This document shows, piece by piece, positions 33,187 through 41,268 of a DNA stretch of 64,000 nt. The stretch spans positions 3,472,001 through 3,536,000 of the forward strand of contig NZ_CP028136.1 of the NCBI RefSeq assembly GCF_003024155.1. The letters run 5' to 3'. Position numbers and translations under genes: made by a program. The notes beneath the pieces are model-generated. The model was not told the DNA's origin and did no database searches. It saw only the letters and a list, made by a program, of their open reading frames with translations. The stretch's first letter is position 1. Each line of letters starts with the position of its first letter. The DNA comes from Christiangramia fulva. Lineage in GTDB: Bacteria; Bacteroidota; Bacteroidia; Flavobacteriales; Flavobacteriaceae.

Positions 33187-33744
33187 CTATTTGTGATTTA
33201 AGCCTGTTGCAATAGAGCGAAGCTCTTGAGGCTCCCATCCTCCGGTTGGCTCTCCTGTTTTAGGATTCCGACCTTCCAGGGTGTACCAGTAAACCTGCCC
33301 CAGGGCTGTGGCATCCGGTCCTAATGCAGGTTGAACGCCGGGTGGCAAGGTGCCGGCAGGGAGAGAATTCAACTTCTCTAAAATTCTGGACCGGCTCCAG
33401 TAGAATTCTACATTTTCTTCAAAAATTATATATATACTAGAGAGGCCAAAGAGGGAACTACTGCGTACTGTTTTAACTCCAGGAACTCCTAAAAGTGTAG
33501 TAGTGAGGGGATAGGTGATTTGATCTTCAATATCCTGGGGCGATTTGCCCATCCACTCCGTATAGACAATCTGCTGATTTTCACCAATATCGGGTATAGC
33601 ATCTACGGGAACGGGATCCCTTGGCATCCAGTCAAGGTTCCAGTTAAAAGGTGCTGTAGCTACTCCCCAGGCCATTAAGGCAACCGTAAGTAAAGCGGTC
33701 ACCAATTTGTTCTCTAAAAAGAACTTTATAGTTTTATTAAGCAT
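33187..33744 (-). pseudogene. cusA: CusA-like RND pump, N-terminal fragment
   Basis: 185 aa covering the first membrane helix and the start of the porter domain of a CusA pump (WMPRDPVPVDAIPDIGENQQ, VKTVRSSSLFGLSSIY). Homology stops at EPQELRSI and seven foreign residues precede the stop, so about 80 percent of the pump is gone. The sequence is of the Cu/Ag CusA type rather than that of the czcA at 1-3492. The gene lies after the HYC_CC_PP gene with an inverted repeat between, the same order as czcA. A non-functional remnant of a copper efflux operon. Confidence 0.88.
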
Positions 33745-38609: not shown

Positions 38610-38971
38610 ATGAAAAGAATCCTCCTTTATTCTGTCATTCTAGCTTTGGTAGGTTGTAATGAAAAGAAAATGGCCCACACAGAGACCGCTAAAATTGTTG
38701 CAGAAAGTTTCTACTACAAGGACAATGCTACCCTGAAAAAACATACCACCACCGAAAGTTATGCCATTTTATCAAGCCTCCAGGATTTATTTGCTGAAGA
38801 TGAAAAATCCGAAATCAACTTTGAAGTCATTGAGGATCCATTAATAGTGACGTAGCCTGGGTGCGCTATTCTACTTCGTTCGAAGAAAAACCGAGCATTT
38901 TCAAGTTAGTTAAAGAAGATGGGCAGTGGAAGGTAACAGAGCAGAAACCGCGGGAGGAAGAACCATTTTAA
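38610..38971 (+). pseudogene. Small lipoprotein (NTF2-like), frameshifted
   Basis: A lipoprotein signal (ALVGC) is followed by HTETAKIVAESFYYKDNATLKKHTT, reminiscent of small NTF2/DUF4878-like lipoproteins. The frame stops at 38855. The next frame continues DVAWVRYSTSFEEKPSIFKL to 38971, the expected C-terminal strands. Loss of one A in TTAA(A)TAGT near 38848 would explain the shift. Function unknown; the gene lies 8 bp after traN. Confidence 0.7.
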
Positions 38972-39053
38972 TTTAACATTTTGCTATCCGATTTTCGAGT
39001 GCTGTGATTTTAAATTACATTAGTGGCCCTAAATGATAGAAACCCTCCACTTT

Positions 39054-40079
39054 ATGGAATTAGAAATCCGACAAATTGCCATACATTATTTAGAAAAAGA
39101 AGCTAAAAAAACGATGGCTGATATTGATTACTCCGACCAGCCGTTGGAAAAAAATGAATTTGCTTTAAATCTTATTGAACAAGTCCATAAGGCAGTAAAT
39201 ATCAGTCCAAGCTTAAAAAATGCATCCTTTAAGGAAGATGAAGAAAATAAATTTACCCTCACACTAAAGGATTATATAGAAAATCCATCAGATGATAATT
39301 TTTCCTCATTTACACATTCTTTAGATATATTGAGAGAAAAGGTTGCCAAAGAACCTTTTGCGGTAGGGGGATATTATCTCTTCGCGGATTATACTATTCA
39401 AAAAGTCAGATATCTTTCAGTAATACTGCTTAGAAAAAAATCCGGGATAAACATTATTAAAAAGGAAGGGGCTTACGTTTTAGATAGTACTGAAAACATA
39501 AATATTGAGAAAATAGCGATGGGAGTGAGGCTTAACTTCAGTATCTACAATTCCCAATCAGATGATCGCAATTATTTAGCTTTAATAACCACTCAACAAG
39601 ACGGGGAAGTGTCAGGTTATTTTAAAGATTGGGTACTTGCAGCAGGCTTAATTAAGAATTCTGTAAATACTGAAAACATGATTAAGCTAATTAAAACAAT
39701 TCCTTTACCAGTGGACGAAGAGGGCAAAGAACTTTTTAGTCGCGGAGAATTCAATAAAGCTATATTTGAGCAGGTAAACAATAGAAAAGATAAGCGTGTT
39801 AATTTATTTGAACTAGGGGCTACTTTCTATGGCGAAGAAAACAGAAATTCTCTTCGAGATTTTGCCGATTCTAACGGGATAACTATAGATTCTGAATTCA
39901 AAAGAGACGCACCGAAATGGAAATCGTTGATTTCCATAAAGGCATCAGTTCCAGGAATTAATATAAATGTTGACTTTGATCAATTTGGGCAACATGGAGT
40001 GCAAATAAAAAATGGTAAGGTGATTATAAATTCCGAAGAACTGGCTAACTCTATGCAGGAGCAATATGATCAATACTAA
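39054..40079 (+). CDS. Nucleoid-associated protein, YejK/NdpA family
   Basis: 341 aa from ATG 39054 (MELEIRQIAIHYLEKEA), which aligns with the start of E. coli YejK; an in-frame ATG at 39033 adds seven residues. Matching blocks are KEPFAVGGYYLFADY (YejK: KYPFADGGFVLFCHY), YLSVILLRKKSGINI, YFKDWVLAAG and a C-terminal INVDFDQFGQHGVQI. YejK binds nucleoid DNA. Here the gene is cargo of a conjugative element and overlaps the next gene by 14 bp, so both are made together. A role in element maintenance or phage defence is inference. Confidence 0.88.
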   Translation: MELEIRQIAIHYLEKEAKKTMADIDYSDQPLEKNEFALNLIEQVHKAVNISPSLKNASFKEDEENKFTLTLKDYIENPSDDNFSSFTHSLDILREKVAKEPFAVGGYYLFADYTIQKVRYLSVILLRKKSGINIIKKEGAYVLDSTENINIEKIAMGVRLNFSIYNSQSDDRNYLALITTQQDGEVSGYFKDWVLAAGLIKNSVNTENMIKLIKTIPLPVDEEGKELFSRGEFNKAIFEQVNNRKDKRVNLFELGATFYGEENRNSLRDFADSNGITIDSEFKRDAPKWKSLISIKASVPGININVDFDQFGQHGVQIKNGKVIINSEELANSMQEQYDQY

Positions 40080-41268
40080 GACCGGAAATAAAAATATTGA
40101 TACATTTTTAGAATGTTATAATAAGAACCTTAAATCTGGTTCACCCAGATATGATGGTAGTAGATTGATACTAAATATTAAGTCTGATTTTCAGGAAGCA
40201 ATATCAAATATTGAAAATGTTTTTTATGAGGTGAACACGCTGGTGGCAGGTTCAATTGAAATTAAGTTATCTTCTTGTAAAATTACCAATGTCAGCTTTT
40301 TTTTTGGCACGAATGATTTTTCTCAAAAATATGACCGCATAAAAAAGAACTTCATTCTTCAAAATATAATTATATTAAATAGTAGCGGACATCATATCCT
40401 GAAGAAAGAATATGACACCTATGACGAAGGCAATGCTGTCATTTACAATATTCATGAGTATCATCAGATTTTGGACTACTTCTTACGTACCCCGGAATTT
40501 ACTCCATATAAGAGCGATACAGATAATCAATTTACCCTGATAAGTAAAACCCACGGCGTATTTAATGTAGGATACAACTTGCCTGATGTTACTTTCTTTC
40601 AGAACGTGAATCTAAACGGCTTATTCAGCCGATTCCAAGAACAATTTGAAAAGAAAGAATTTATACAATTTTTTAAGGAGATTGTAATAGCAGGAGTACA
40701 TAATACTCCTGAAGAAAAACGGTATAATGAAATTATCAGAGAACATAATAGTCTTCTGAATCTCGCTAAAAGAGATTATGAAACCTACGTCTCAAATTTT
40801 GCTTTTGATAAAATCAAATCAGAATTTAAAGAAGAGAGAGGGAAATATTTTGAAACTATCGATCGAAATATAGATTCGATTGGTAAGCAAGTAATATCAT
40901 TCCCTCTTACGTTTGGGGCGACCGTATTCGCAAGTTATAAGGTAAAGGATCAACCTGAATTTTTAATTCTCATACTTGCGGCATATTTACTCTATACAAT
41001 TATAGCTTTTCTAATCCTAAGAATGACCGCTTATAATGTAAAATGCCTTTGTAAAGACGTTAACGACGAAGAACTAACGATTCAAAAATCTTATGGAGTA
41101 ATTTATGAGGGGTTCAAATCAGATTTTAAAAAAATTAAGCATAAAATATTAAACCTTCGGTTTATCATTGGTGTGTTATACTTTGTACTAATAATGTTAT
41201 TACTCCTTTTTACAATTTTCACTTTTTATTATATCGATATAGATTATTTATCCTATTTAATAGAATGA
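40066..41268 (+). CDS. Uncharacterised membrane protein paired with NdpA
   Basis: 400 aa, no family recognised. About 260 N-terminal residues are soluble with a beta-rich start (CKITNVSFFFGTND). A Lys/Glu-rich helical region (about 215-275) follows, and then three to four membrane helices (about 285-300, 305-327, 370-395). The start codon lies inside the end of the NdpA gene (14-bp overlap). The layout of soluble sensor plus membrane domain beside a DNA-binding partner resembles toxin/effector pairs, but nothing proves that. Confidence 0.75.
   Translation: MINTKTGNKNIDTFLECYNKNLKSGSPRYDGSRLILNIKSDFQEAISNIENVFYEVNTLVAGSIEIKLSSCKITNVSFFFGTNDFSQKYDRIKKNFILQNIIILNSSGHHILKKEYDTYDEGNAVIYNIHEYHQILDYFLRTPEFTPYKSDTDNQFTLISKTHGVFNVGYNLPDVTFFQNVNLNGLFSRFQEQFEKKEFIQFFKEIVIAGVHNTPEEKRYNEIIREHNSLLNLAKRDYETYVSNFAFDKIKSEFKEERGKYFETIDRNIDSIGKQVISFPLTFGATVFASYKVKDQPEFLILILAAYLLYTIIAFLILRMTAYNVKCLCKDVNDEELTIQKSYGVIYEGFKSDFKKIKHKILNLRFIIGVLYFVLIMLLLLFTIFTFYYIDIDYLSYLIE

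Follow-up and report, generated by a model that had tools for sequence, protein, structure and literature searches.

A mobile gene pair of Christiangramia fulva, an NA37-family protein and a membrane protein, as a putative RexAB-like phage exclusion module

Why should a conjugative element carry a gene for a YejK/NdpA-type nucleoid-associated protein that runs into a gene for a membrane protein? The question is raised by a stretch of the Christiangramia fulva genome (contig NZ_CP028136.1, positions 3,472,001 to 3,536,000; this whole stretch of 64,000 nucleotides is called the window below), in which gene A, encoding a member of the NA37/YejK family, is followed by gene B, encoding a predicted membrane protein. 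Both are present as complete open reading frames (ORFs). Our results show that the pair is a real and widespread two-gene family; no description of an NA37-B pair was recognized in the literature, which was covered for open-licence papers only. On balance we lean, with modest confidence, towards the view that A and B form a putative mobile anti-phage exclusion or abortive-infection module of the RexAB kind, in which A would be the DNA sensor and B the membrane effector.

Linkage and distribution of the pair

B is not a protein found mostly without its NdpA-type neighbor, an outcome that a preliminary description of this locus had named as contrary to its proposal of a two-gene system. A lies directly 5' of B in 24 of the 26 loci found by way of B, namely 14/15 genome loci (from scanning genomes with 40 homologues of B), 4/5 plasmids and 6/6 phages. 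The two exceptions are a locus that starts inside B at a contig end (L012) and a Cupriavidus plasmid with a 209-amino acid B remnant. In all 32 loci where both genes were detected they are on the same strand with A first, spaced by -44 to +27 bp, which is the RexAB-type order of a predicted DNA-binding protein followed by a predicted membrane protein. Since this adjacency recurs across two phyla it is more than chance, and the pairing is old and near-obligate for B.

Trees of NA37 proteins agree with this picture. In a maximum-likelihood tree of 104 proteins (duplicates and rows shorter than 250 amino acids removed), 20 rows with B fall in one 21-row clade (support 100/96), and a 77-row clade as well as six other rows are without B. 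The B label changes twice on this tree, as compared with 18.7 times in shuffles, and 0/500 shuffles were as low. B is confined to one clade, and therefore a dedicated NA37 branch travels with it. The main Bacteroidota clade, with its 77 housekeeping YejK rows, has no B alongside, and E. coli yejK likewise lacks one. A 49-row tree that includes Pseudomonadota has 27 rows with B and 3 label changes vs 16.3 in shuffles; E. coli YejK, a Vibrio plasmid NA37 and Pseudomonas-type phage NdpA lie inside its paired radiation, on a weak backbone and with some long branches.

The pair itself is rare among the relatives of C. fulva. In 395 genomes from the order of C. fulva, the flavobacterial B profile picked up at least two (C. 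fulva and G335) and the A profile at least five places. Three A places came without a called B: two of them (L021, L023) had a divergent B adjacent and one (L024) had none, and G335 (L022) has both genes. At the level of the phylum, 82 of 395 genomes carry NA37, at 89 places, and B adjoins five of these (the C. fulva pair, G211, G409, G697 and G537) in a scan around all 89, of which 30 were represented by about 1.5 kb per side only. No NA37 ORF was recovered at L111. In L024 (4805-6832) the NA37 gene stands beside a 317-amino acid gene of another kind, perhaps a different NA37-based cassette. Several Flavobacterium prophage-like loci have two more genes after the pair (L009:9274-10916, L011:9274-10919, L007:9260-10949), perhaps as additional components of the module there; the L009 copies gave no PHROG match.

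The pair is carried by flavobacterial integrative and conjugative elements (ICEs) and prophages, and by plasmids, phages and prophages of Alpha- and Gammaproteobacteria. The A protein of the window matched 88 plasmid records, the first two examined being a Sphingomonas plasmid with B and a Vibrio plasmid without it. On the former, the NA37 gene is overlapped by a 391-amino acid B homologue, with matches in 8 plasmid and 7 phage records; five of the other seven plasmid records and 6/7 phage records were examined, with H45, H48 and H52 (Acinetobacter) left out. Pairs occur on plasmids of Methylobacterium, Methylobacter, Pseudomonas and Pseudoalteromonas and on Sinorhizobium phage phi2LM21, one Acinetobacter phage and two Klebsiella phages. 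With the pair DNA of Klebsiella P7641 as query, 39/5426 E. coli genomes were matched, none over at least 80% of the query; with that of Kp4865-4 there were 35/5426, of which 14 over at least 80%, and the two sets may share members. B is present in prophages and phages where the stretches examined contain no tra genes, and for this reason we rejected it as a transfer component of the ICE. This outcome, too, had been named in advance as contrary to the proposal, and the view of the pair as cargo stands.

Five E. coli loci, whose B proteins meet the B profile with E-values of 1e-27 to 2.6e-39, are all in prophages by annotation. In three lambdoid prophages the pair stands in inverted orientation, with the Q antiterminator on one side and the lysis genes on the other. 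In two Mu-like prophages (our reading of their transposase and head genes) it shares its strand with a helix-turn-helix (HTH) gene and lies 3' of it, immediately so in L135 and with one gene between in L134. The HTH protein of L135 contains a CI-type repressor domain (PF07022), and the layout of a repressor gene followed by A and B resembles cI-rexA-rexB. Genes for a SLATT-domain protein and a reverse transcriptase are annotated beside the integrase of another E. coli prophage locus with the pair (L131:1296-3195), perhaps as a second defense cassette.

The two proteins

The product of gene A meets the NA37 family (PF04245) with an E-value of 8.8e-28 and 98.1 bits, as compared with a Pfam cut-off of 24.6, and NA37 is the only Pfam family on it. 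It falls below the YejK equivalog NF001557 (103.7 bits vs an NCBIfam cut-off of 341), matches phrog_3767 (E 7.2e-35), and its structural model matches the solved YejK structure 9be2 (Foldseek E 1.2e-16). The start at 39054 is an internal Met of the longest ORF and agrees with 341-amino acid homologues that begin with MEIKIR. Housekeeping YejK belongs to the same Pfam family, and both kinds occur in the C. fulva genome, but the housekeeping-type copy (2568342-2569319; G000:C1; L002, L025) has no B alongside.

The preliminary description had placed B in no known family, which holds for Pfam and NCBIfam, where nothing scored above cut-off (nor was there a PADLOC match), but not for PHROGs: B matches phrog_5023, a cluster of phage proteins of unknown function, over residues 111-390 (E 1.1e-14; PHROGs have no curated cut-off). 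The soluble front half and C-terminal membrane helices that had been described are also what an AlphaFold model and hydropathy predict. The model (mean predicted local distance difference test score 83) has an alpha/beta part up to about residue 225 and long helices at 227-292 and 297-389. Averaged over 21 diverse homologues, hydropathy has its maxima near residues 285, 309 and 377-381, and three membrane segments are therefore likely. Pro280 (40903-40905), in the first of these, is the sole fully invariant column among 18 diverse B proteins. The 8xMP family (PF24838) does not match the B of the window in Pfam; 6/40 relatives match it at E<=0.1, P0287 reaches 26.3 bits (below the cut-off of 30), and precomputed tables assign it to P0016, P0287 and P0291.

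Putative function and rival explanations

We hypothesize that A would bind phage DNA, or its replication or recombination intermediates, and would signal via the soluble half of B to activate B in the inner membrane. B may then open or damage the membrane and halt the infected cell in the manner of RexB-type effectors. The model is RexAB of lambda and of Pseudomonas putida prophage P1, which is likewise a DNA-binding-protein gene followed by a membrane-protein gene, prophage-borne and sometimes repressor-linked, a likeness by description. In P. putida, RexA binds DNA and is reported to set off damage to the membrane through RexB (PMC12894663). The systems differ, again by description, in that A is NA37 by sequence and that P. 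putida RexB has four helices, whereas B is predicted to have three and a soluble part of 225 residues. Another known system, found in E. coli by the DefensePredictor screen, shares the YejK nucleoid-associated domain with A and is reported to protect E. coli MG1655 against phages (PMC13092281). It is plausible that this system is the same pair. The defense layout proposed in the preliminary description thus gains from the accessory-gene positions in prophages and from this published protection, and the function of the module itself is our inference.

Restriction-type genes near the pair in ICE or island settings point in the same direction with little force. In a Salegentibacter locus (L004) the pair follows genes that we read as tra-type from their ORF sequences, with genes for HsdM and HsdS after it; HsdM and HsdS adjoin it in L055, a Mrr_cat-nSTAND3 protein is encoded next to it in L008, and a Type ISP enzyme lies near it in L015. 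These four loci were picked because defense-like genes had been seen there. PADLOC (E<=1e-5) matched 337 families for 115 of 132 pair-neighbor ORFs and 52 families for 115 of 171 control ORFs, taken from around NA37 genes without B. However, this excess should be regarded as weak evidence: the subsets were hand-picked (the pair set was trimmed of near-duplicate loci and edge ORFs, the control set of three loci and some more ORFs), the numbers count families, a single restriction gene being fitted by many models, and among the control matches listed are the defense-named DndA, SspA, PDC-M32A, mad and QatD.

Several observations weigh against a RexAB-like module and call for caution. That A binds DNA is an assumption drawn from its family, and NdpA2 of the ICE PAPI-1, an NA37-type protein, is reported not to have shifted the promoter tested when purified (PMC8565334). 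A search for structural relatives of B gave none. P. putida RexB is reported not to have depolarized the membrane (PMC12894663), and the available text on the YejK-domain system leaves the partner unnamed (PMC13092281). For the Sphingomonas NA37 there were 69 phage records with a match, most of them from Vibrio and Pseudomonas, as against 7 for the Sphingomonas B, and four NA37 loci (L116, L128, L129, L130) are without B; because NA37 without B is common on phages and plasmids, its presence there is by itself no sign of B. L081 is the only row without B in the 21-row paired clade. Finally, the five E. coli loci say nothing on linkage, since the pair itself was the query.

The four loci without B are a Vibrio plasmid and Pseudomonas-type phages, and in F116 the NA37 gene adjoins recombination and methyltransferase genes.

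A silencing system without killing, as in Kiwa (KwaA-KwaB), would also combine two genes for a membrane and a DNA-binding protein: B would hold A at the membrane, and A would coat injected phage DNA and block its replication and late transcription, with no damage to the membrane. We consider this unlikely. The fold likeness between A and KwaB is faint, and the tool's own note places structural scores of this size within chance; the gene order is reversed, and the proteins in the KwaA position, of about 190 amino acids, are without the large soluble part of B. Membership in Kiwa by sequence was rejected, the profile comparison giving 0.1-1.4% for A vs KwaB and 0.2-0.6% for B vs KwaA, by eye no better than reversed controls (0.1-0.2%; positive control 100%), for seven pairs whose KwaA members were defined by position beside 7 KwaB genes. 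The PADLOC model of KwaA left the B of the window unmatched and matched 1/18 relatives. Less likely still is a regulator or nucleoid partner of the element, in which A tunes transcription or acts on the element's DNA via B at the membrane and so controls transfer, lysogeny or partition with no anti-phage role. NdpA2 is, like A, an NA37-type protein on a conjugative element, and together with TprA it is reported to raise transfer (PMC8565334); the C. fulva pair adjoins transfer genes, and two E. coli pairs lie beside an HTH gene. NdpA2 differs from A in that it works with the regulator TprA, and an overlapping membrane partner is not mentioned in the available part of the report (PMC8565334). 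Against this rival, the pair is missing from nearly all relatives searched, it sits in unlike elements in which no other common genes were noticed, and protection from phages has been published for the YejK-domain system.

Overlapping genes, a mobile location and a predicted membrane effector could also be expected of an addiction or stability module, in which B would be a membrane toxin restrained by A that keeps the element in the cell. We regard this as very improbable, insofar as no toxin-antitoxin family in Pfam, NCBIfam or PADLOC matched A or B, and a protein of about 340 amino acids, encoded first, would be a large antitoxin.

With the pair, a part of the NA37 proteins of mobile elements, annotated merely as nucleoid-associated, gains a partner and thereby a testable mechanism. 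A flavobacterial conjugative element and E. coli prophages are seen to carry the same module, and a family of more than 200 unnamed proteins is tied to likely phage exclusion. A more far-reaching view, which we put forward tentatively and with considerable doubt, is that of a distinct and ancient immunity class: a DNA-clamp sensor with its own membrane effector family, which phages and conjugative elements have carried into two or more phyla. The fold of this sensor would be common to NA37, RexA/RdgC, KwaB and the kinetochore proteins CENP-L/N. On this view, since E. coli YejK nests in the paired radiation of the weakly resolved 49-row tree, it would be a sensor of that lineage that was orphaned and domesticated. 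The origin of YejK becomes a testable question.

The locus in C. fulva

The overlap, the YejK/NdpA homologue and the 400-amino acid gene of the preliminary description were all recovered (Table 1).

Table 1. Coordinates of the pair and of predicted segments of B in the window
Feature	Position	Strand	Description
Gene A	39054-40079	+	NA37/YejK-family protein, 341 amino acids, predicted DNA-binding sensor
Gene A, longest ORF	39033-40079	+	348 amino acids
Gene B	40066-41268	+	400 amino acids, predicted membrane protein, predicted effector
Gene A / gene B overlap	40066-40079	+	14 bp
Predicted membrane helix 1 of B	40888-40941	+	about residues 275-292; model and hydropathy
Predicted membrane helix 2 of B	40954-41022	+	about residues 297-319; model and hydropathy
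Predicted membrane helix 3 of B	41161-41229	+	about residues 366-388; model and hydropathy

The pair had been placed between transfer and mobilization genes. On the 5' side lie genes for TraM (PF12508, E 9.9e-41) and for a DUF4138 protein (E 3.1e-29), which we take to be TraN, and on the 3' side, on the minus strand, one for a TrwB/TraG-type coupling protein. Beyond it a DUF5712 protein is encoded (PF18976, E 1e-114), whose Pfam entry gives no mobilization function.

Directly 5' of the pair is an 81-amino acid lipoprotein-type ORF (38610-38855) with no Pfam family, shorter than its 121-amino acid counterpart at the same neighbor position in the Salegentibacter locus (L004, 6526-6891). Elsewhere in the window, a 185-amino acid ORF (33187-33744) encodes a piece of a resistance-nodulation-division efflux protein (ACR_tran, PF00873, E 3.9e-20) that covers the first 146 of 1021 profile positions.
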